Assembly: GCA_900088475.1 (NCBI GenBank)
Contig: FLMG01003203.1
Span: 5,888-41,654 of the forward strand
Length of the DNA stretch: 35,767 nucleotides
DNA from: Hyphochytrium catenoides
Taxonomy: Eukaryota; Sar; Hyphochytriomycetes; Hyphochytriales; Hyphochytriaceae
Direction: 5' to 3'
Part shown: positions 2,115 through 35,628 of the stretch, in pieces
How positions within the stretch are numbered: position 1 is the first letter of the stretch
Layout: each line of letters opens with the position of its first letter
Made by a program: the position numbers and the translations under genes
Notes under the pieces: model-generated
What the model was told of the DNA's origin: nothing
The model's input: only the letters and a program-made list of their open reading frames with translations
Databases searched by the model: none

Positions 2115-3332
2115 AATCCGCTACTTCCAAGCCGCAGTCCTCCAACAACAAGCGTTTCGGTTTGTCATCCGCCTTGTTCAAGAATCTGTCTATCACGTCA
2201 ACTTCCCTGTCTCTCTCTCGACCTCTCCCAGTCTTAAAGGGGGGACAAAAAACTCAGTCGCTTCATAAATACCCCGTAAGGGCTCTGCATACACTTCCCT
2301 AAGAAGGCCTTCCTCTTCCCTTTCAATCTTCATCGAAAACACCTTCTGTACCTTAGCCCGGAGCTTCAGAATGACATAGAAGCTCCACAGAGTCCGCTGA
2401 TCTGCAAAAATCTTCAGAAATTAGCGCCAAAGCGTCAGAAACTTCGTGTTTGGTGCTTCGCGCCACAATAATTGACGTTAGCGGTAGTCTATGTGCTCGT
2501 TAACGGCTCTTGTGCGTCAATGTCGTTTCGGATGTGGAGAGCATTGCAGAAAGAGAAAAAGAGAGAGAGACACAGACAGAGAGAGAGAGACAGAGAGAGA
2601 CAGAGAGTGAGAGAGACAGAGACACAGAGAGACAGAGACACAGAGAGACAGAGAGACAGAGAGACAGAGAGACAAAGAGACAGAAAAAGAAAAAGGGAGA
2701 GAGAGACAGAAAGAGAGAAAGAGTGAGAGAGAGAGAGTGAGAGAGAGAGAGTGGAGAGAGAGACAGAAAGAGAGAGAGAGTGAGAGAGAGAGTGAGAGAG
2801 AGAGAGTGGGAGAGAGACAGAGAGAGAGGGGCAGAGGATTGATGAGCAGAAGAAGGGCAAAGTGGTGTCCGTCCCAGAGAAATGAGAGACGGACAAACAA
2901 GAAGGTCTCCCATGTGAGTCGAAGGACAGACAAGGAGGAAGAGAAATCTGTCCTTTCGAAGGGAAAGGAAGGAGACACAGTGCCGATCAAGGGCAGAGAG
3001 AGAGAGAAGAGAGAAGAAGAACAACCCACCCAGAGAGGGAAAGAAGTGCCTCCCCGGCTTGCAAGATGCAGAAACGGAGAGAGAAGGAGAGAGAGAGAGA
3101 GAGACATCGGAGAGGGAGAGAGACAGAGAGAAAGCAGGTGATATGATGGAGGAAGAAACTATTCAGGTCTAGCCATGGTCTAGTGAAGAAGGCGAGGAAG
3201 GGAAAGAGCTGTGCTCGATCTTTCTAGTTTCTTTCTCTTTTGTCTCTCTCTCTCCTTGGTTCTCTCCCTCTCCTCCACTCTCATTCTTCTCCCTTTTTCC
3301 TCTTTCTCTCTCATTGGCGAGCACAGAGAGAC
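2115..3332. other. Divergent intergenic region with GA microsatellites and a hairpin
   Basis: This stretch lies between two head-to-head genes and probably holds both promoters and 5' leaders. Positions about 2548-2835 are GA/CAGA repeats. A plus-strand open frame at 2737-3141 has a mixed charged composition like the kinase N-terminus, so part may be leader or an upstream exon, but nothing in it is recognisable. Just before the kinase ATG, 3225-3325 is a CT tract ending in AG, which would suit a 3' splice site of an intron in the 5' leader. I see no convincing TATA box. Confidence 0.5.
2360..2386. repeat. Perfect 8-bp inverted repeat (GGAGCTTC ... GAAGCTCC)
   Basis: The arms are 2360-2367 and 2379-2386, separated by an 11-base loop. 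It lies in the divergent intergenic region, roughly 250 bases upstream of the polymerase ATG. It could be a hairpin or a dimeric protein binding site, or chance. Confidence 0.4.
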
Positions 3333-6300
3333 ATGGGAAAGGCACTTTCAAAGGGCAAGGTCTTCAAGGAACCAACCTCCACTCCTTCTCTCCCTTCTCT
3401 TTCTCCTCGTGCACGCTCTCTCCCTGTTGAAGGCACAGGACGAAAGGAAGAGAGAGAAGAGAAAACATCGACTCTTGTCCCTCTTTCCTCTCTCTCTCCT
3501 TCCGAAGGAAAGGTTCTCAGTGTCAGGGCCCCTGCGAGCCTCTCCTTCTCTCCTCCTGCCGCGCTCTCCCTCTCTCAAAGAGGAGACGTGGAAATAAACG
3601 GAGAGAAAGAGAGAGAGAAAGAAAAAGAGACAGAAGAGAAGAGAGAGGAAGAGAGAGAGAAACAGCGATTCCATGGCCTAGGGAGACGGAAAGACTGGAT
3701 TACCAGCAGCAGCCCCATCGATGACATTGTGGACGGCGTAATAGACTCCAGCCGGAGAGAGAGAGACGATGAAGAAGAGAGAGACGACGACGAGGTAGAA
3801 GTCGTGGAAGACTGGTGCTTGGAAGGAGAAGAAGGGAAAGAGAGAGAGAAAGAAGAGAAAGATGGAGATACGGATACAAAAGGGAGAAGAAAAGCGTCGC
3901 TTCATGGCCTTAAAAGAGAGAGAGAGAAGAACAAAGAGGAGACAAAGACCTTGCCCAAAGCGAAGAAAAAGAAGAAGAAGAGAGAGAAGAGAGGCGTGCA
4001 TGACTGGAGGGGAGAGGAAGAGAACGAGAGAGAGAAAAAGGTCCTCCCAGGCTACGATTCTTCTTCTTCTCTCTCTTCTTCTACTCCTGAAGACGATGGA
4101 AGCACGACGAAAGACAGTTCCTCTGCCTCTCACGAAGAGGAAGAGGGCGAGTTGTATGACTGGTGCACCTCTACTCAGGAAGAAGTGGTGGAGAAGATAG
4201 AGAAAGAGAGAGAGAAAAAGGGAAAAGGAACGGCTGAAGATGAGGGAAGAGATCAACACGAAAGAGAAGAAGAAGACAGAGAGAGAGATGGCGTTGACAA
4301 TTTGAAGGAAAAGGGCTCCAAAGAAGTGAGAGGGAAAGTCCAAGAGGAAGAGAGAGAGAGAGGACAGATGGGCCCTGATTCTTCTTCTTCCTCTTCTTCC
4401 CCTTCTCGAACTCTGGCGAAACCCTCAGTCACGCCCTCCTCTGCTGTCTTCTCTCCTCTCTCTCCCCATCGTCGGCCCGTAGCCCTAACCCTTGGGACAG
4501 GAGGAGGAGGTGCAGGGGGAGAGAGAGTGCCTTTTCCTGGTCCTCTCCTGCCTCCGTCTCCCCTTGCCAAAGGTCAAACATCAGGTCCTCCCGCTGTTTC
4601 TCTCTCTCATCCTCTCTCCTCCCAGACACCTCTTATTATAGGAATGCCCATGGGAAAGCCTCCTCCTGCGAGCGGTAAGCCACCTGGACGGGGAGGAGAG
4701 AGAGGAGCAGGGGCAGGGGGAGGACTGCTCTTTCCTCCTGTCTCTTATACAAAGAACGGCGCTATCGCTGCTATTTCTTCCTCTTCTTCTCTCTCTCCCT
4801 CTCCTACAAAGGGGGACCAACCTCGGCCCTTCCCTCCTCCAATGCTACAGCTTCCCCATAGTCCCAAGCACGCGGGGAGAGGAGCAGACTTCTCTCTCTC
4901 TCTTTCTCTGGGGAATAATGCGGAGGGAGAGAGAAGAGAACAAACGAAAGGGTTCACCTCCTTTCCTCCTTCTTCTTCCTCTCCCACCGGCGCATCTTCT
5001 CCTCTCCCGCCAGGAGGAGCGGGACGTAGGGCAGGGCCGGGTAGTCCTCTCAATAAGCCTCCTCCTCAACCAGGAGAGATGCCTCTCTCTTCCTCTCTCT
5101 CTCCTTCCCCTCTCTTTCTCTTGCCAATGTCGGCCGGTCCTCCTCCCTATGGCACTTCTCTCCGAGGTTCTCCCACTGGAGCGGGAGGAGGAGGCGGAGG
5201 GAGACTCATGGTCCGGCCTCCCGCTCCCTCTCCTCCTCCGTCTCTCCATATTCTTCAAGCTTCTCTCCCGTCTGACCCGTCTCCCTCTCCTCTCCCCTCC
5301 TTTCCAGAAGGCTCTCTCTCTCTCTCATATGAGAATCATCTCTCTCTCTCTCCCGCACCGCCTTCCTTAGGGGGAGAGCACAACCCTGTCCTCGGTGAGG
5401 CAAAGTCTCCCCCTTTCCCTCTCTCTTCTCTCTCTCTCTCTTCTTCTTCTTCTCCTTCTTCTTCCTCTCACATTCGAGACACCAAAGTCGTGAAGAAGAA
5501 GAAGGTGGAGCTGCCTAAGGGCCATCTGCCACATCCTAAACCCAAGTTTGGCGATTGGCTCTCCTCCCGCGTGATGATAAACAACTACATCGTCCTCGAG
5601 TCACTGGGAAAAGGGAGTTTTGCAGAAGTGCGGCTGTGCAAAGAGAAGACCTCTGACAAGCTCTTTGCCTTGAAAATCATTGACAGACAGAATATGAAGA
5701 GCTCTCAGCTGGGGAAGAAACAGCCCAAGTTTGAGGACATCAAGAGAGAGATTGAGATCATGAAGCAGCTGAACCATAAGAATGTCCTGCGGCTGTACGA
5801 AGTGATGGACGATCCTAAGGTTAACAAGCTCTATCTCGTGATTGAGTACATGGCTCATGGAGACCTTCTGAGCATGATCAAGGGCTCAGCTGAAGAAGAG
5901 AGAGAAGGAGAGGGAGAGAGAGGAGCAGGAGGGAAGAAAGAGAAAGAGAGAGAAGGAAAGAATAAGATGCATCCTCTTTCCGATGAGGAGATTTGGTCCT
6001 TACTCTTGCAGGTCCTCGACGGTCTCAGGTACCTTCACGATAAGAAGATCGTCCACGGAGACATAAAGCCTCAGAATCTCTTGGTCGGAGAGGGAGGAGT
6101 GGTCAAGATTGCGGACTTTGGCATCTCTCAGACTCTCTTCGCCAGTAAGCAGAAGCTGACTGATGTCGCGGGCACGCCTGCCTTTATGTCTCCAGAGATG
6201 TGCTCAGGGGAAGAATGTCAGTAGGCTCAGTATCCCTTTGCTTTTTCTTTGTTTTCTGGTTTCCTTGACTTCAACCTCTTTCTCGCGCTCTCTCTTCTCT

Positions 6301-8924
6301 TCTTTCTCTCTCGCGCTCGATTCAGCTCACGATCTGCTCTCTCTCTCTCTCCTCGTTCAAACCTCAGCCCTCTCCGGGGCCGCTTAATTAGTTCTGCCAC
6401 TCTCCTGTCCGGTCTAGGGCCTTAGACCTTTCTCCTCGCCTCGTTTGCGTTTCATCTCTCTCTCTCTGCTCCCTCCGTCCGCTGCCTTCCTCTTATGCTG
6501 AATGCCTCTGTGTTTTCCGGTTGACCCCCTCTCCCACTGCCTGTCCTTCTTCCCATCCAGACTCAGGCCAGCTCGCGGACATCTATGCCTTGGGTGCTAC
6601 AGTCTACATGTTAAGGTATCATCTCTCTTTCTCTCTCTCGTCTCTCTCTTTCTCTCTTCTCTGTCTCTTTCTCTCCTCTGTCTCTTCCTCTCTCCCCGTC
6701 GTCCGATGCCCCTTAGCGGTTAGTGTTCCCCCTTCAAACATTATGGTCCTCTCTCTGTTCCTCTCGTTTCATTTTTGCGTCACTTACGCTTCGTCCTCTT
6801 CAAGCTGTCACCGGTGAGGTCGACCTCTTTCTCTGTCAAGCTGCCCCCCTCGCTCTCTCTATATATATCAGTGACTAGATATATATCTCACAAGGTCCGG
6901 CAGTCTCACACGGTTAACTGTTCCTCTCTCTCTTATTATCTCCCCTCTCTCTCTCTCCGTGTCTCTCTAATTGTCTCTCTCCCTGTCCGTCATTGTCTGT
7001 ATCTCTTTCTCTCTTCTCCTCTTCTTCAACGCGCAGGTTCGGCAGTCCTCCGTTCATAGCAAACTCGATCCTGCAGCTGTACTATAAGATCCAGAATGAG
7101 CCTCTCTCCTTCCCTCCAAACACTCGCGTAGATCCTCTTCTCATAGATTTACTTCGAGGAATGATGGAGAAGAACCCCAGCCAACGACTGACATTAGAAG
7201 GAGTGATGGCCCATTCTTGGCTGAAGCAGAGGCCCTCTCCTCTTTTGGACGAGGAGACGAGCGAGAGAGAGGAAGAAGAAGAAGAGAAGAAAGAGTCCAA
7301 GAATGAGAGTCAAGAAAGGGAGAGAATGGAGGATACGGCAGAGAAAGAGAAAGAGTTGACAGCTCAAGAAGCTATGCAGCGCTCGGTCAAGTTCATTTCT
7401 ATGGCCACGCACCGGAGTATCCCCAAAGAAAGAGTGCAAAGTGACGAAGAAGAGTCTGATAGCTGCGGGGAAGGAGAAGAGGAAGTCACTTGCGGAGCAG
7501 GTGGGGAAGGAAGAGAGAGAGATACAGAGAGCCCGGAAAAAGAGAGAGACGTGGAAGGTCATTCAACGGAGAGAGAGAGAGACGCTAATTGCTCCTCTGT
7601 CGTCAAGGTCACGACCCAAGACTCGCCTCGGCTCCAGGAGCTTCTCTCCACTCTTCAAGTGCAACAGTTGGGAGAGCCATCAGCGGAAGAGGGTGCTCAA
7701 GAGGGAGAGAAAGAGGCAGAGGGCGTGAGGCTCCCTTTCTCCTCTCTGCGTGTCTCTTCGCGCGAGTTAGAGAGAAAGCAAATCGGCATTTGTTTCTCTT
7801 CTTTCTCTATTCAAGGACAGAGGGAGAGACAGGAGGATCGCACTGCTATTATCGGGGACATGATGAAGATCGATCTGCAGAACGGGACAGCGCCAGCGGA
7901 GGAGCTGTCTTCTCTCGCCTATTTTGCTGTCTTTGACGGCCACTCTGGAGACTTCTGCTCTTCCTTTCTCTCTTCACACTTCCACGAGTACCTTGTCTCT
8001 TCCTCATCTTTCCCTTCTGATACGGAGAAAGCACTGACCGAGGCATGTCTCGCCATAGATGAGACCATCTGTCAGAGAATGTTAGAGAAGGGGCAAGACT
8101 GTGGCTCTACGGCGACGATTGCCATTCTGGACGGGAGAGAGAGAGAGGAAGAGACTTCACCTACGCTAGGACCAGGAGAAGCAGACACGGTAGAGAAAGA
8201 GAGAAAGAGACGACGTCTCTACGTCTGCAACGTGGGAGACTCGCGCTGCATTCTTTCTCAAAAGGGCCAAGCCCTCGCCCTAACTTCAGACCACCGACCC
8301 ACGAGAGAGGATGAGGCGCAGCGCGTGCTCCAGGAAGGCGGCTGGGTGGCCAATGACAGAGTGAACGGCGTGATGGCCGTCTCTCGCGCCTTTGGGAACC
8401 TTGAGTTCAAAATCTATGGCAATGGCAAAGGGAACTTTGTGACGGCCAAGCCGGAAGTGACTGTCCACGAGTGCACAGCTGAAGACGAGTTCTTTATAAT
8501 TGCCTGTGATGGACTCTGGGACGTTCTCTCTCCTGAAGAGGCGGTGAAGTTTGTGAGAGGAAGAGCGAGGCGGCACGGGAGAGTGGAGCAGGTCGCGAAA
8601 GAGCTGGTAGAAGAGGCGCTGAGGAGGTTCAGTGCCGATAATGTTAGCGCTGTCATAGTCTTTCTTGATGGAGAGAGACTAGGAGATGAAGGAGGAAATG
8701 TCTCCTCTTTCTCGTCTTCTTCAACTGCTTCTTCTCTTAGAACGGGAGAGAGTCACTCTGCACTGGGGAGCTCTCTTTTGCAAGGAACGTCTCTTCCTCT
8801 TCCCTCGCCAATTATAGAAGGACAAGACGCGGTGGCGCCTTCTCTGCCCGGAGGGTCTGCCCAGCCTGCCTCCTCTTCCTCTACAGCGGGAGCGATGCAA
8901 CTATTGAGCGATGGGAAAGAGTAA
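3333..8924 (+). CDS. CaMKK/GRIK-type protein kinase fused to a PP2C protein phosphatase
   Basis: Exons 3333-6216, 6561-6615 and 7037-8924 join in phase to encode 1608 residues. Residues 1-745 are acidic/basic low complexity followed by Ser-Pro-Gly-rich sequence, probably disordered. The start MGKALSKGK matches an N-myristoylation context (Gly2, Ser6). The kinase domain, about 751-1040, shows GKGSFAEV, the ALKI lysine (781), the catalytic loop HGDIKPQN (Asp910), DFG (928) and GTPAFMSPE. A charged EREGEGERG-type insert splits the N- and C-lobes. Kinases of this class phosphorylate AMPK/SnRK1-type enzymes; HGD rather than HRD recalls plant GRIK/SnAK. The PP2C domain, about 1230-1520, has QEDR (1246-1249), VFDGHSG (metal Asp1280), SRAFGN, CDGLWDV and DNVS (Asp1514), so both enzymes look catalytically intact. 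The exon 1/2 junction restores EEYSGQLADIYALG and exon 2/3 restores MLRFGSPPF, which supports one continuous kinase domain. The PP2C follows in the same exon as the kinase C-lobe, with no stop between them. Confidence 0.93.
3593..4370 (+). repeat. (GA)n tracts within coding sequence, encoding Arg-Glu/Lys-Glu runs
   Basis: Repeated GAGAGA tracts lie inside the first exon of the kinase-phosphatase gene and read as alternating Arg and Glu. A (GA)n run gives GAG and AGA codons in all three frames, so its own translation is not altered by frame, although unit changes would shift the flanking frame. Similar shorter runs occur within the kinase insert near 5900-5960 and in the linker near 7260-7560. 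Confidence 0.8.
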
Positions 8925-9743: not shown

Positions 9744-11755
9744 CTATCCAAATGTGGTTGCGACTCTGTCAAATGCTGAGGAGAGAGAAGAGTATGTCGC
9801 AAGGAAAGAGTGCTGAGGGGCGACAGTCTGCAGCTGAGAAAGATACTTCTGGACCAGTTCCTGAGGCTTCCGCAGGTGAGAGGAGCAGACAATCAAGTTT
9901 ACCAGCGTGTCCGCGTCCTCGGGGTTCTGTATGAGCAGAGAGAAACAATGATGAAGGCGTCGAAACAAGACGAGACAACACGTGAGAGGGGACAACATGG
10001 GAGAGAAAAGCGAGAAAGTAAGAGGGGAGAAGAAGACAAAGAGGAAGAGTGAGAGTAGGTAAGAGAGAGAGAAGAGAGAGAAGAGACGAACTAATGTCGG
10101 AACAGGGGGAAGAGACTGAGAGTAGACGAGACAAGAAACAAAGAACGAAAGAGAGATGAAGGAAGAGCAAGAAAGCAGCGCGACAAGGACAAACGAAAGG
10201 CCAGCAGGAGGCAGGACAACTAGAAGAGAGAAGACCGACGTGCAGATGCTGTTGCTGACCTTCCCAGCTGCATCCACAAGATATCTCAGTGCATCCTCAT
10301 AGTTCCTCAGGTGCATGTTGGCCACGGCCAGGCCGTTCAGAAGCTTTGAAGACTGTCCGAAGCGTTCTCCTAGCTCCTGGAAGAGGTACGCAGCCTCCTT
10401 ATATTTAGCACCGCCCTAAGGAGCAAGCAAAGAAGAAGCGAGAGAGACAAAGACAGAATACATGACAAGGCACAGGCAAATAGACACACAGAGAGAGAGA
10501 GAGAGAGCAGAAGGTCAGGCAGTCCGACTATCTCTTGGTCTCGTTTGCCTTGCTACGACGGACGAAGGACCCCGCAACTCCTCTTCTCTAGCTTCGGGAG
10601 CCTATTTCCTCCTGACCATCTTTGTGAATCTTTTTCTTCCTAAACGTTAGTATTCACCTGCGCCAGATAGACCCAGGCTGCTGCGAGCTGTGTGATCGTT
10701 GACTCGTCGTCCGCGGCCTGCATCTTCTTCAGCTCAGCTTCTGCTAAATCCAGCCGGTCCAGCCTGAGCAGGACTTGGACTGTCAGGGCCATCCTAAAAA
10801 AGGGAAGAGAGAGAAAGAGAGAGCGAGAGACACACACAGAGAGAAAGAGAGAGAGAGAAGCGATGGGAAGAACACAAAGGTGGGTGGAACGGGGAGAACA
10901 AAGGTAAGTCTCGATAGGACAGGACAAGAGACATGAACAGCTTGTTACGCTAGAGAGTAAGAGGCAAGGGCAATGGACGACAACAAATAGAAAGGAAAGG
11001 GAAGAACTGGCAGCCAGACGAAGACATTTTTAAGGACAGCAAAAGGTTACTTTCACAGCAGGAGGACTGACGGTGGAAGGCAACAGGAGACAGTTTGTCT
11101 GAGAGAGAGGAAGAGAGAGCAAGAAAGAAGGAAGAAGAGAGAGATAGCCACCCGAGAGAGGAGAAAAAGAGAATGGAAGAGAAGCAAAAGAGAGAAAACG
11201 GACATAAAGAAAGAGAGACGGTCAATATCGGGAACCGCACACACCAAAACAGTTGTTGACTGCAGAGGAAGAGCATCAGCAAGAGACTCGCTCTTAAGCA
11301 GACGAGAAGAGGAGAGAGACTTGTGCTCACATCTCAAGCTTAGTCCCGTTCTTAACAGCTTTTAATGCCTCCGCGAACTTTCCCTCATTGCAATAGATAA
11401 TGCCCGCGATCAGCTGCAGAGTAGGATTGTTCGCCGTGTTGGTGTCATTGAGCCAGTCATTAAGCGTTATGAAGACAATCTCTTTGTCTCTGTGCTGAGG
11501 AGCGGGAGAGAGATAGGTTGCTAGCAGTTTGACTGCCTGCAGGTCCACTGGTGCGCTCACGGGCACTGAGTCAATAACAAGGTTGTGCTGGTTGAGCCCG
11601 ATCTGTGCTCTGTGTATGTACACATCCCGCTGAACTCTTAGGGACTCTGGCAGGTTGGTGAGGACCTGGCCCTCCATCACCGCCATCTAAAGGGGAACGC
11701 AGGCACGATGAAATGAGAGATGAGAGAGAGAGAGGCCACCACGAAGCGAGTTATC

Positions 11756-17365: not shown

Positions 17366-20300
17366 CTACTGCTGGAGCTTCAGATTGTACTATGGACAGA
17401 GAGACGTTATACGGAGAAGATAAAGGCAGAGCAAATGGGCGAGGCCGAGGACAGTATAGTGAAAAGCACGAGTGGATGTTAATGCTAAGTATCATTCGGA
17501 GGCGAGACATACAAGCCTTCGAAGAGGAAGGAACGTGTTTATTTGGGAGAAGAGAAAGAGAGTGTCATTCTTACGCTTTTCACTCTGTAGAAGCTTCTAA
17601 AGCCGAAAGCAGAGAGCGAGTTCCCCTTGCCCGAGTCCTTCATCCCACCCCAGGCAAGGTGCGGGTCCAGGTAGTCGCAGCGATTCTGAAAAATGGTTCC
17701 ACATTCAAGCTTCTCTCCCATCCGGAGAGCACGGTCCTGGGAGAGTCATATGAGGGAAATTGTGAAACACGCAGAGAGTGAGAAGGTAGACAGCGAGCAA
17801 GAGAGTGGACAAAACTTCCGCGTGACATGAAGAATGGTGCGAGAGAGAGAGACAAAGACAGCCAGACAGACAGTGAGAGGCAGACAGACAGACAGACTCA
17901 GAGGGAACACACACAGAGATAGAGACCATGCAAGTTTTTCTTTCATTTTAACTCCCTGTTGATCCGGTTTCTCTCTAACTAAACTCTCGTCTTCTCCCTC
18001 CCTTACATCGTCTGTCTCCTACGGGTACCACTTCTCTTGACCGCCTGGCCTTACTACATCTCACCTTGTCTGCGGTATACACTGCGGCTGTTAGTCCGTA
18101 GGGACTGTCATTCATCAGCTTCAGCGCTTCTTCCTCTCCGGTCACAGGCATGACTGCCGCGATAGGACCAAAACACTCTTCCCTCTGTTAAGTGAAACGT
18201 TAGAGATCTAGTGCTCTCTCTCTCTCTCTAGCTGAGGCCAATACGTCCCCCATTGTCTCTTCGTGTCCCGTCCTTGCACAGCCCCTACTGCTTCTTCCTC
18301 TCTCTGCACCGTTTGTCTCTCACGGCGACTCCTCTCTCTCTATATATATATGTAGTTTTTCTTCCCTTCTCCCTCCCATCTGCTCTTCCTCTAACCTACT
18401 GACCATAATGCTCATCTTATGGTTGCAGTCGGCTATCAAGGTTGGAGCAAAAAATCGTCCTTTTCCGTTCTTATCCGTTGTCGGAGAGCCACCGCAGAGC
18501 AGTCGCGCACCTTTCGACACTGCCTCCTTGACCTTACGTAGAGACAAACCAAAGGGACAAGAGACAGAGAAAGGGTAACGGGGTAGGAGGAAATAGATAA
18601 ATTGGCAAAGCCCTGATTAGACGGTCAAAGATCTTGAAGAAAGAAAAAAGAGAGAGAGAGAGAGAGTGTGTGAGAGAGACAGAGAAAAAGAGAGAGAAAG
18701 GAAGAGAGAGAGAGAGAGAAAAAGAGAGAGAGAGATCTCAATCGAAAGTTCTGTAAGGACAATCTAAAGAGAGAGCTAGCACTTTTTACCTGGTTATGTA
18801 AGAATTCAGGTTGCTGCGGCAGAGCCATTGGACCCATCGTCGTCTTCGACTCCATAGGGTCGCCCAGCTGGGCAAAAGAGAGATAAGCAAGGAGGCAGGC
18901 GAAGAAGTGGGAATAATACTCAGTGTTGATGACTCTTTTCTGCCTCAGGAGAAGCCCTAGCGCTCGCTTCATCCGCTCCACACTCTCGCAGGGGTAATGA
19001 GATCTCTTTCCTCCCCTTCCGTCTCTCTCCTCCCTTGTAAGGAGATTCCTAGACTGCTCGCCCATCGCTGGTGAAGGTTCTCTATTGACCGCTTGTCCAG
19101 TCTCTCCTACTCACTTACCACGTACTGCTCCACAATCTCTTTCGCAGACTGGAGAAACTCTTCATAACTCTCTCTTTGCACGTAAATTCTCTCTACAGAG
19201 CAGCAGCTCTGCCCGGCATTATATAGCGCGCCGTCCACCAGAGAGGCAGCTGAGGCAGAAACGTCTGCATCCTCCGCGACGTAGGCCGAATCCTGAAGGA
19301 GAGAAGAAAGGAAGCGAGGTCCATTATTGATGGGAAGAATGAACAAAGTAGAGAAAGGGAGAGAGTAGGATAACCGCTGCAGTCCGCAGAGTGGAACGAT
19401 AGAAAGCTTCGATCGATAGAGAAAAAGTTGCTTCTCTTACAAACTCATGGAACAACAATGGAGAGAGAGAGGGAGAGCGGTGGGCCGAGAGCGAGAAGAT
19501 CGAGAAAAAGAGCCAATCAAAGAGAGAGGTAGATAACGATGAGAGAGACAGAGAGTAGTAAGAGACAAAGAAAGAGAGAGACAGCGACACCGAGAGAGAG
19601 AGAGCGAAAATGAGATTGAGAAAGAGTTGCAAAAGAAAGAAAGCTAGACTTTTCATAACGGCTATATGTTCACCTTTCCCCCGAGCTCGAGCGTGCAATC
19701 AATGAAGCGTGAGTCCGCTATGGCGGAGTACACTTGACGGCCGCTGGAAGCCGAACAAACCGACGGTCAGTGCCAGATCTACTCCCTTGGCTCCAATCGC
19801 GCGTGTTCTTTCTCTCCGAATGCACCGTTTCTTCCTTCATGCGCTGACCATGCACAGCTCTAGTCACCTCATATCGCTCTCAACCAACATCTGTCTCTCT
19901 CTGTCCAAATCCCTCTCTCTTCTCTTTCTCTCTCTCTCTCGTCTTCTTTCTCTCTCTCTGCTTCTCTTCTGTCCATCCAATACGACTCTCTCCGTCTCCC
20001 TTACCCTTGGACAGATCCAGTAAAAGAGACAAAGCCGACCTCAGGCTGAGCAATCACCTAAAGGAAGCGAGAAAACAGAGGTGAAGAGAGCTAATTTATA
20101 GCGAGAAACGATACTATATGAGAAGATTAGGCATGATAGAAGGCGCGTACAGATACAGATCCCAGATAAGTAGAAGCTAGGCAGGGAGAGAAAGGGAGAG
20201 AGAGACCCGTTCGCACCTTGGCTGCAGTTCCATGGGAGCACAGCAGAGACTGAACGAGAGTCTCTGGCGCGCCGGCCGAGACAAAAAGTTCCTCGAAGTG

Positions 20301-23970: not shown

Positions 23971-26641
23971 TTAGTACAGTCCTGGTACGATCCTGTAGGG
24001 CACAAGCTGGCAGTAGGCATCCCAGTCTCTCCCATACTTCCTCCGGCAGTGCTGGTTATCTCTCCTTTCCCTGTGTACCAGCAGCACGGCGAAGTAGATG
24101 GCGTAGAAGTGAGGCAGCAGCGCACCACAGCCGCAGCAGAGGCACCATGCCAGCCCCATCAGCCAGTCACCAAGATAGTTCGGGTGACGGCTAAGGCCCC
24201 ACCACCCAGAGGCCAGCAGACGCGTGCCTCTCTCCGTTTGGACGTAGCGCACAGCTCTGCCCCAGATTCTCTCCCTCTCTGGATGGGCAGAGGAGCGGAA
24301 AGTGTGCTTCTGATTGTTAGCAGAGCGAAACAGATAGTAGCCGAAGAAGTTCAAGACAACCAGGAGGCAGAGAGAGAGATATCCGAGGCTTTCCTGAGGG
24401 TTCTTCCATAGGTAGAAGGCTTGCAGGGAGTAAGAGAAAGGGACGAACGCGAGGTCGCCGTAGCAGAGCATGAAGCCGAATTTGTCATGCATAATATCCA
24501 TCGTCGTTAGAATCGCCTCTTCCTGCCAGAAATAGTCGACAATGTACCAGGTTTGAAAGAGAGAGACAGCGAGGAGAGAGGGAGTGACAGTGCCAAGCTC
24601 CTCATACTGTTTGAAGCAGAAGGACCAGTTGATGAGTACCCAGAACATGAGACCTGCGGCAAGACGAGAGAGCGAGAGATGAGACCTACAAGACTGAAAA
24701 GGGAGAGGGAGATCGGCTCCTTAGGGCCCCCGAGTCCCACATGTTATTCTCCTCTCAGTACCAGTAGTGGCCATTTCACCTCGTTGTTTCCCCATCTTGA
24801 GGCCCCACCTTCACCATCTTGAAGCCTTACCGGCTCCACATTCTCCCTCCTAGGGAATCTCTGTCTATCTCTCACTTAGAGTGGTGCTTTGACAGAGCTT
24901 CTCTTTCTCTGTCCTCTCGATCCTTCTCAATGTAACATTGTGCTCACCGGGTCTACTCTCGCAGAAGCACTTCAGGTCGAAGTTTCCGATCCGCGGATTG
25001 ACGCTTCCACCAAGGAAAAAGTTGAAGATGTCGCTGCTTGTCTCTCTCTCCATCTTCCACCCAAAGGCGCCCACCTGTATGACAATGGAAGAAAGTGGAG
25101 ACAAAAGAGAGGGCCGAGAATGTATATTGAGAGATCAAACAGTAGGGAGTCTGGGGAACAGCCATGGGCAAGGGGGAAAAAATTGCGCAGAATGGGGAAG
25201 AGAGCGATAAAAAGAGGTGCTCTAAGGGAGGTACTGGCTCCAATAACATGGAACATGGAAGAGGTTCCATTTAAGCGTTGAAAGAGACCACGAAAGAACT
25301 GCTTGAAAGAAAAAGCACTGTGCAGGCGCAATGTAAGGAGTGGAGCAGAAGCCAGATCTGCAAGTGTCCGTTGGTTGAGACCGAATACCGGGCCCATGCA
25401 GAGACAGGAGCAGGGCAGTGACCACAGGGCGGACCCCTACCTTATGTCCGAGATAGAGGAGCGCACTAAGAGTGTAGGCAAAGATCGTGGCCACCACCAC
25501 CAGCTCACCCAGATGATCAACCAGAATGCCGCCCTCAAACAGACCAAGGTACGCACCAAGTAAAAAGCCGCTGAATGTAATGCACATGGCGCACCAGCCG
25601 TTCATTTTATAAGGCAGGCGGCGGCCTTGCTCTTGAGGAAGCGGCACGCCAAAGACCGTTTCTCCTGGGCAGAAGAGCTGCAGGAGAACCTGAAGCGAAA
25701 ACCAAAGCCCATAAATCTTTGCTGCAGCCCAAGACGGGGAGGGAAAGTGCGCTAGATAGAGAGAGGAAAACTCATCCCAAGAGGAAGGGAGAGGGATGTG
25801 TCCCTCGTGGTGCTGCATTACGATGTGGAAAAAGATGACCAATAAAGGCAGGCTTGAGATGATGAGGAAGCAGCCCAGAGGGCCGCCGAACTCATCAGCT
25901 CTGTAAGCGTAGATCTTCCGCGTAGGAGAAGAAGTCCGAGAGACAATGGCCAACGAGGATAGCACAGCCATAACGAAGATGCCGGTCATGAGAGGGAGCT
26001 GCAGGGAGAGGAGAAGAGTGAGAAAGGGTTGGCAGCCGGGAAAGAAAACACCAGGTAGAGCAAGCACCAAAGAAACCAAAGAAGTTAGGCTAAGCGTGGG
26101 TACTTTTGCAGTCTGCCCCTGTGTAAATATTACCTGCATCTTCTCGTGCTCCCATAGGGCTGGGCCTTGAGAGACCAGCTCCCCTGCAGCAGCCTCCATA
26201 CTTCTCAGAGCTTTAAGGTACTGCTTTTCTTCAAAGGAGGATTTCACTGCGTTCCTTAATGGCTCGTCTCCTTCATCAGAAAGAGCCCAATACCAGATCT
26301 TCAGCCTGCAAGGCGCAGAGCTGCATAGCCAAGACCCGAGAAGAGAGCGGCACACCTGGCCCCAGACGTATAAGTAGAGAAGAGTAGGGATAGGAGAGAC
26401 CAGGTCTGGAAGAGAGAGAGGGACGGGGAGGAGGGAGAAGAGCGAGACAGAGACAGAGACACAGGGGATAGGCCCACGGACACACAGAGACAGAGACATA
26501 GAGAGCGCAAAAGAAGAGAGGCAAGTGGCTGATGATCGGAAAGATTCTCTCCTTAGGAAGGATCCTGATAGCCCCTAATAATACATTAGAACGACAGGGG
26601 CTGCTGTGCTGTAGTTCGTGATTTGGCCAGCGTGTCATCAT
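23971..26641 (-). CDS. Membrane sterol reductase of the ERG24/LBR/DHCR7 family (probable delta-14 reductase)
   Basis: Core exons on the minus strand are 25441-25998, 24948-25074 and 23971-24653, all in phase. They encode multiple hydrophobic helices beginning at [19 protein letters not shown]. Landmarks are [44 protein letters not shown]...[33 protein letters not shown] and the C-terminal [18 protein letters not shown]. The family uses NADPH to reduce ring double bonds of sterols in the ER membrane. The LNPRIG-like and RPGL segments fit C-14 reductases (ERG24/FACKEL/LBR) slightly better than DHCR7, but sequence alone does not decide it. Upstream, an exon ending at 26134 (ALWEHEKMQ) joins in phase; its 5' boundary is 26305 or further upstream. 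The start is tentatively the ATG at 26641 ([12 protein letters not shown]), only 52 bases from a tRNA gene. The 5' structure is uncertain. Confidence 0.88.
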
Positions 26642-26693: not shown

Positions 26694-26765
26694 TAGCTTT
26701 GCACGGTTTCGATCCGTGGACCTGTGGGTTATGGGCCCACCACTCTTCCTCTGAGCCACAAAGCT
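26694..26765 (-). tRNA. Initiator tRNA-Met (CAU), copy 1
   Basis: On the minus strand it folds with a 7-bp acceptor stem AGCTTTG/CAAAGCT, a D arm GCTC/GAGT, an anticodon stem GTGGG/CCCAC around loop CCCATAA (anticodon CAT), and a T arm CACGG/CCGTG with loop ATCGAAA, then discriminator A. Initiator hallmarks are the A1-T72 pair, three G-C pairs at the base of the anticodon loop, and A54/A60 in the T loop. Position 33 is C rather than the usual T. No intron. A run of five T follows on the minus strand. Confidence 0.95.
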
Positions 26766-26849: not shown

Positions 26850-26921
26850 TAGCTGCGCACGGTTTCGATCCGTGGACCTGTGGGTTATGGGCCCACCACT
26901 CTTCCTCTGAGCCACGCAGCT
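26850..26921 (-). tRNA. Initiator tRNA-Met (CAU), copy 2
   Basis: Identical to copy 1 through the D, anticodon and T arms. It differs only in the acceptor stem, AGCTGCG/CGCAGCT instead of AGCTTTG/CAAAGCT; both strands of the stem have changed together, so pairing is kept. It has the same initiator features (A1-T72, CCCATAA loop, ATCGAAA T loop) and lies 84 bases from copy 1 in the same direction. Confidence 0.95.
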
Positions 26922-34797: not shown

Positions 34798-35628
34798 CGA
34801 TCCTGTCGCATACAACGACAGCAAAGGAAGGCGGAGTTCATCCGCACAATATCGCTGTTCTACACAGCAAGGACCAGTATCCTATCTGGTTCAAGCCGGG
34901 TACGAAGTTACCTGGATGATGAGTTAGACCTACTCGTTCACATTGAGGATGAGAGTCAGACAATGATGGCCGATGGCAAAGACCCGCTCACCAGTAGGGA
35001 TTTCACAGAGACAAGCAAGAAGAACTGGAAGAAGAATGATCGGAAGACGATCAACAAACTGGTTCCCCTAGTTTCTGATGAGCTCCTGTCGCTGCTGGAA
35101 GGGCAAGAATGAGCGTACGCGGGATGGCTAAAACTGCAAGAGCAGATGAATGGAAAGGAAGGGGACAACGTCCTCAGGCGCCTTCAGGGGATCACCAACT
35201 CAAGGTTTGATTCTGGAGGCACCACCTCTCTGAGATCCCACCTGACCACCCTGAAACAGAGGACAGAGGTTGACGGTTTAAAGTTATTGACTCTAAAGAA
35301 TATCTTCGAAAGGAGAAACAAGAAAGAGAACCAGCAAGACATTAATGAGACAATCCTCATTTCTTCAATTCTCCAAAGCCTCCCTCCGTCCTTTGACTCT
35401 ATAGTGAGCCACCTGTACGTCTTAGGGACTTCCTCTCTGGCTGCAGATGAGGTTATCGACCGTATTATGGATGATGAACAGAGAGGAGGGTCTAGCTCTG
35501 TACACTCTCCGGTTGCTACTCTACCTTCTTCGGAGATGAATGCTCTCTCTGCTCCAGGGGAAAGGAAAAGAGAAGATCCCCCAGATCAGCGAAGACAGGA
35601 GAAACCTGCGCGTGGCAGCAGGTGTTGA
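34798..35628 (+). pseudogene. Ty1/copia gag (UBN2-type) with an internal stop codon
   Basis: One frame is readable from 34798 to 35628 apart from a TGA at 35110-35112. It encodes AEFIRTISLFYTARTSILSG, YLDDELDLLVHIEDESQTMM, a WKKNDRKTINKLVPLVSDEL block, then WLKLQEQM, LRSHLTTLKQRTEVDGLKLL and ISSILQSLPPSFDSIVSHLY. The W..ND.K block and the ILQSLPPS(F/Y) block are typical of copia gag/UBN2 polyproteins, which form the particle that packages element RNA. No start ATG is visible at the front, and the frame also ends at 35628 without a zinc-knuckle motif, so the copy is broken. Confidence 0.8.

Follow-up and report, generated by a model that had tools for sequence, protein, structure and literature searches.

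Does a single gene of Hyphochytrium catenoides encode a protein kinase and a protein phosphatase in one chain, and what might such a protein do? The question arises from a 35,767-nucleotide stretch of DNA (hereafter the window), in which the first-pass annotation had read one in-phase model of 1608 residues containing both enzymes. We rebuilt that model from the same exons (Table 1). Both domains are matched by Pfam far above the cut-off: Pkinase at residues 752-1042 (E 1.2e-59) and PP2C at residues 1235-1516 (E 9.4e-63). The core motifs of the kinase (GKGSFAEV 759, ALK 779, REIEIM 805, HGDIKPQN 908, DFG 928 and GTPAFMSPE 947) and the motifs of the phosphatase (RQEDR 1244, DGHSG 1280, VGDSR 1379, DGLWD 1471 and DN 1514) are all present, as the annotation had claimed, and both catalytic cores are intact. 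At the level of sequence, the fusion is confirmed as real. Its product is a putative bifunctional kinase/phosphatase, and we infer both activities from the conserved motifs.

Table 1. Features of the kinase-PP2C gene, in window coordinates
Feature	Position	Strand	Content or basis
Exon 1	3333..6216	+	low-complexity N-terminal region (about residues 1-710), pre-kinase block, kinase to just past activation loop
MGKALSKG, N-myristoylation-like start	3333..3356	+	start-pattern comparison across clade
Conserved pre-kinase block IRDTKVVKKKKVELPKGHLPHPKPKFGDWLSSRVMINNYI	5472..5591	+	orthologue alignment
Kinase domain, first part (residues 750-962; HGDIKPQN, DFG)	5580..6216	+	Pfam and sequence comparison
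Exon 2	6561..6615	+	kinase subdomain IX (YSGQLADIYALGATVYML)
Exon 3	7037..8924	+	kinase end, linker, PP2C, C-terminal tail, stop
Kinase C-lobe end (to residue 1046)	7037..7235	+	Pfam
Linker motif A, LTAQEAMQRSVKFISMATHRSI (family [LM]SxEExxxRxxxF)	7356..7421	+	orthologue alignment
Linker motif B, QDSPRLQELLSTL (family LDELLLTTL / FNSVMDTL)	7617..7655	+	orthologue alignment
PP2C domain, four metal-binding motifs	7776..8687	+	Pfam and motif alignment

How widely is this layout shared? A homologue search scored 7987 candidates, of which 846 passed, and we examined the best 120 of these 846. By profile matches, 89 of the 120 carry both domains and 31 carry the kinase alone. In a tree of the kinase domains, the fusion kinases form one clade together with four kinase-only sequences (100/99). 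Nine sequences outside this clade were left out, five with both domains (P0079, P0088, P0093, P0118 and P0103) and four kinase-only (P0108, P0111, P0113 and P0117). Hence, among the best 120 of 846 homologues, 84 clade members have both domains, and the architecture is not unprecedented, as the annotation had held on the strength of a plant family (VTC3, discussed below). All two-domain clade members that bear organism names are stramenopiles, and the many name-less sequences leave room for a wider spread. The named genera are Phytophthora, Nothophytophthora, Pythium, Aphanomyces, Thraustotheca, Saprolegnia, Achlya, Ectocarpus, Pelagomonas, Octactis and Triparma; one further name reads “Leptoc”, which we take as the diatom Leptocylindrus. 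Several of these stramenopile proteins are named “CAMKK/CAMKK-META” in databases. The lineage survey thus points to stramenopiles, for the named sequences among the best 120 of 846.

The window kinase is sister to ten sequences, seven of them named oomycetes (100/98); H. catenoides lies near the oomycetes, a placement taken here from the kinase tree alone. The main subgroups of the kinase tree reappear in the PP2C tree, which, on a weak backbone, puts all fusion PP2Cs on one side of a branch (76/88); the group of the window protein, P0023 and the oomycetes reaches 56/32. We consider one fusion event behind the stramenopile kinase-PP2C genes likely, though not proven. Among the kinase-only models are P0063 of P. 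infestans, P0061 of P. cinnamomi, two sequences of Ectocarpus and P0106 of the diatom Stephanodiscus. Some of these models may be truncated. Nonetheless, with a kinase alone modelled in 31 of the 120 listed homologues, the PP2C domain may be dispensable. The nesting of P0106 and two relatives inside the fusion clade suggests that PP2C has been lost there, although an approximately unbiased (AU) test did not reject a tree in which the fusions alone form a single clade (p 0.31).

The stramenopile kinase-PP2C proteins of Phytophthora, Pythium, Aphanomyces, Saprolegnia, Ectocarpus, Pelagomonas and Triparma resemble the window protein in domain order, in the HGD and GTPAFM motifs of the kinase and in the PP2C motifs. 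Of the 56 clade members whose PP2C is essentially complete, P0056 and P0082 lack some of the four PP2C motifs, and the other 54 keep all of them. Most of these proteins also have the pre-kinase block and the linker motifs, both of which the window protein shares with its orthologues, and most of the long models begin with MGxxx[ST].

What type of kinase is this? The four best solved-structure matches of the window kinase are CaMKK1/2 (E 3.8e-53 to 3.8e-49; 183.8 to 170.7 bits), and the next kinase type, Aurora, reaches 138.5 bits. We built a profile from 15 fusion kinases, the window kinase among them. It gives CaMKK 250-269 bits and GRIK 252-255, LKB1 182 and VTC3 42-61. Fusions of the cNMP-binding type score 193-273 bits and the kinase-only, unclassified P0111 scores 272; five other kinases of the H. 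catenoides genome score 123-171, with two AGC-like ones at 125-132. The catalytic loop reads HGD in 76 and HND in five of the 81 complete clade kinases. HGD is also found in all 120 GRIK sequences and in three of three insect CaMKK sequences, whereas all 120 VTC3 sequences have HRD. Structure matches, profile scores and HGD together support the CaMKK/GRIK type that the annotation had assigned, and CaMKK1/2 of animals and GRIK/SnAK of plants are the closest kinase type by both sequence and fold. Unlike the window protein, the CaMKK and GRIK sequences we saw have no PP2C. An Arg-Pro-rich insert is a feature of CaMKK; CaMKK1 has it, whereas the window kinase is shorter at that point in the alignment and lacks it.

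The kinase tree gives no supported order for the deep branching among CaMKK, GRIK, cNMP-type fusions and LKB1, and AU tests rejected none of five kinase groupings, that with VTC3 included (p 0.30-0.57). LKB1 was also considered. It is absent among the 60 best PDB matches of the window kinase, and we dropped this identity on its 182 bits against 250-269 for CaMKK/GRIK, with a joint clade left standing by the AU test (p 0.337).

A further comparison with CaMKK concerns the segment after the kinase. A CaMKK-like V[ST]xDE[IM]-type segment is found in 22 of the 30 other stramenopile fusions (0.28 expected from shuffled linkers), whereas the window protein and its close relative P0023 have no match to the pattern, a weak comparison since the pattern also misses a true insect CaMKK (P0113). 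We had considered LTAQEAMQRSVKFI as this segment in the window protein and dropped it, since the orthologue alignment puts LTAQEAMQRSVKFI at linker motif A.

The lipid-anchor-like start of the protein is new relative to the first-pass annotation. We compared start patterns in 80 clade members that begin with M and have a complete N-terminal side of the kinase. MGxxx[ST] is found in 17 of the 18 in which 400 or more residues precede the kinase (the exception is P0006; PP2C is modelled in 14 of the 18), in 31 of the 55 with 200 or more such residues and in 31 of all 80, counts that are not independent since the clade members share kinship. In the controls, the pattern occurs in 1 of 119 GRIK and 2 of 120 VTC3 sequences (3 of 239 together); a bare MG start is common in VTC3 (85 of 120), but without S/T at position 6. 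The pattern turns up again in sequences of oomycetes, of the Ectocarpus and Pelagomonas clades, of Triparma and of Stephanodiscus, and the window protein fits it (MGKALS). Its K after G is excluded by the strict PROSITE pattern PS00008; NCS-1 and hippocalcin start with MGKxxSK and are myristoylated. The genome of H. catenoides has NMT_C exons. The N terminus is probably myristoylated, judging from these patterns. Relatives from water moulds to brown algae share this layout and a likely membrane anchor, so the gene probably represents an ancient signalling switch built into one protein rather than an oddity of a single genome.

The linker carries two short conserved motifs. Of 32 linkers, 25 match the pattern for motif A (2.5 expected by shuffling) and 24 that for motif B (0.04 expected); both patterns were composed after the alignment had been viewed. 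We modelled the structure of an orthologue, P0033 (839 aa), with AF2 and 50 sequences. The model has two confident domains and a mostly disordered linker (pTM 0.47) and so predicts no fixed kinase-PP2C contact. In it, motif A is a modestly confident helix (pLDDT near 65, dropping below 50) and motif B a low-confidence helix (pLDDT below 50). The best fold matches of the modelled phosphatase are PPM1B, TAP38 and ABI1; those of the modelled kinase are mostly CaMKK1/2, with AMPK among them too.

What might be the function of a kinase and a phosphatase in one chain? The H. catenoides gene would be a copy of an old stramenopile gene in which a CaMKK/GRIK-type kinase is followed by a flexible linker and then by PP2C. 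A myristoylated N terminus would hold the protein at the membrane. There, the kinase would phosphorylate the activation loop of a co-localised SnRK/CaMK-type client kinase and the tethered PP2C would strip the phosphate from the same loop, such that one chain would set and reset one switch; the linker motifs would decide which activity dominates. The most economical reading is a membrane-tethered chain that writes and erases phosphate on a client, which may be a kinase of the SnRK/CaMK type; we rate this reading just short of an even call. Weighed against it are a second CaMKK-like kinase in the genome, the lack of a clear AMPK-alpha (both described below), the kinase-only homologues and the disordered linker of the P0033 model. 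We also put forward a bolder form, which is possible but doubtful: an enzyme of the class that activates AMPK/SnRK, lipid-anchored and able to “write and erase” within one chain. Its kinase and phosphatase would counteract each other at the membrane on one and the same residue of the activation loop, and it would be older than the oomycete/ochrophyte split and have been dismantled in some diatoms.

Two other arrangements deserve weight. The PP2C might act on its own chain, dephosphorylating the kinase domain or the linker, while the kinase alone meets the client. This would suit the long flexible linker that joins the domains, and also motif A, in which basic and Ser residues in many sequences may mark a cis phosphosite; however, conservation of the serines in motif A is not strict, and the kinase, with its HGD loop, is of the non-RD kind. 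Non-RD kinases often do without an activation-loop phosphate. We consider such self-regulation unlikely. Alternatively, the two enzymes might have different substrates and be joined solely for co-localisation at the membrane. The absence of a fixed interdomain contact in the P0033 model is consistent with this, as are Stephanodiscus P0106 and the relatives P0095, P0096 and P0100, whose models have an MGxxxS start and a kinase without PP2C. Against separate substrates, the domain order, the linker motifs and both active sites have been kept across deep stramenopile splits, which suggests functional coupling, and we rate this explanation, too, as improbable.

If the write-and-erase reading is true, PFK-2/FBPase-2 and similar bifunctional regulators would have a counterpart in Ser/Thr signalling. 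Should kinase and phosphatase indeed counteract each other on a single residue, the chain would be a natural phosphorylation switch within one protein, maintained over a very long evolutionary time and directly testable in algae, and the picture of AMPK/SnRK-type signalling in stramenopiles would be redrawn. Furthermore, the conserved lipid-type signal would give the protein a cellular location and offers a simple test.

Which clients and competitors does the genome offer? One review names CaMKK-beta as a kinase that phosphorylates AMPK, and GRIK/SnAK as acting on SnRK1; both targets are dephosphorylated by PP2Cs and have myristoylated beta subunits (PMC4033248). We searched the H. catenoides genome (42.5 Mb, 1105 contigs) and found an AMPK-beta-like exon, Mo25 exons and 43 exon-level PP2C matches. 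The kinase loci inspected are by eye CIPK-, CaMK-, AGC- and AMPK-related-like, with no clear AMPK-alpha among them. A search with PF16579 gave zero matches, as did its controls, and so is no sign of an absence. A second, unfused CaMKK-like kinase (G000:C539:135031-135855) has HKDLKPEN and a CaMKK-like VEVSEEEL post-kinase segment. Hence, the fusion is not the sole candidate upstream kinase.

Kinase-PP2C proteins in Phytophthora are already in print. The accessible text for P. infestans lists four kinases with PP2C, of classes AGC, CAMK and OTHER, and describes two PKG-PP2C proteins with cNMP domains whose kinases are inactive (PMC3019232). For P. sojae, five kinase-PPM proteins, called bifunctional, are reported, each from a single transcript (PMC10925823). 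Among the literature matches listed, mostly outside subscription journals, we found no description of a CaMKK/GRIK-type fusion, of a stramenopile-wide spread or of a lipid-type start, and these family-level features seem to be undescribed. Four of our homologues (P0079, P0088, P0093 and P0118) have kinase and PP2C in one chain, like the window protein, but carry a cNMP-binding domain, and their kinases are a separate clade (96/95). These kinases group with CaMKK/GRIK (89/81), away from AGC-like sequences, and P0079, P0088 and P0093 keep HRD, unlike the inactive kinases of the P. infestans PKG-PP2C proteins. Homologue P0103 combines a response-regulator domain (PF00072) with a kinase and a PP2C in a single chain.

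The known plant case of a kinase and PP2C in one chain is VTC3 (PMC12675267), a protein kinase and PP2C-like protein. VTC3 has the same domain order as the window protein, and, with long branches, a clade uniting it with the fusions survived the AU tests for both the kinases (p 0.345) and the PP2C domains (p 0.13). However, the VTC3 kinase is TKL-like, labelled TKL-Pl-3 in two database names, has HRD in place of HGD/HND, and scores on the fusion-kinase profile not only far below CaMKK/GRIK but below the two AGC-like kinases of H. catenoides itself; the MGxxx[ST] start is also all but missing from VTC3. We therefore dropped membership of the plant family as very improbable, on the profile scores and the catalytic loop, though the AU tests left the joint clades standing. 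The annotation is supported on this point, as it is on the kinase type, the single chain and the intact catalytic cores, whereas the role that it proposed in energy or stress signalling is conjectural.

The gene model itself fits the fusion. Spliced together, the three exons give the open frame, and M1 is the first ATG in the frame beginning at 3228. The introns (6217-6560, 344 bases, and 6616-7036, 421 bases) are GT..AG, and neither length is divisible by three. Both interrupt the kinase-coding part, none lies between the kinase end and PP2C, and the GTPAFMSPE-to-FGSPPF segment, spanning both junctions, aligns without gaps to five of six printed orthologues; the sixth (P0018) has one additional residue. 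The splice model is thus supported by homology across both junctions. Since the kinase end, linker and PP2C share exon 3, no splice is required between the two enzymes. With both domain E-values below 1e-58 and both domains in the 84 clade homologues, the fusion is not due to chance. That two adjacent genes were falsely joined, or that assembly or splicing misled us, could draw on the kinase-only models, but we dropped it as having almost no chance given the shared exon and the two-domain homologues, some of them transcriptome-derived (P0035 and P0065); the single-transcript P. sojae genes, which may include the orthologue, point the same way.

The window sequence is strongly CT/GA-rich throughout, and the pyrimidine share is ~76% in both introns of the kinase-PP2C gene. 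Elsewhere in the window, at 35113-35628 on the plus strand, is a weak copia-type gag match, under the Pfam cut-off. The minus strand carries a coatomer epsilon subunit in two pieces (9747-11686), a piece of an aldehyde dehydrogenase (19110-19436, E 1.2e-12), an ERG4/ERG24 sterol reductase in two pieces (23974-26574, E 8.6e-91 and 1.1e-16) and two closely spaced tRNA-Met (CAT) genes (26694-26765 and 26850-26921).
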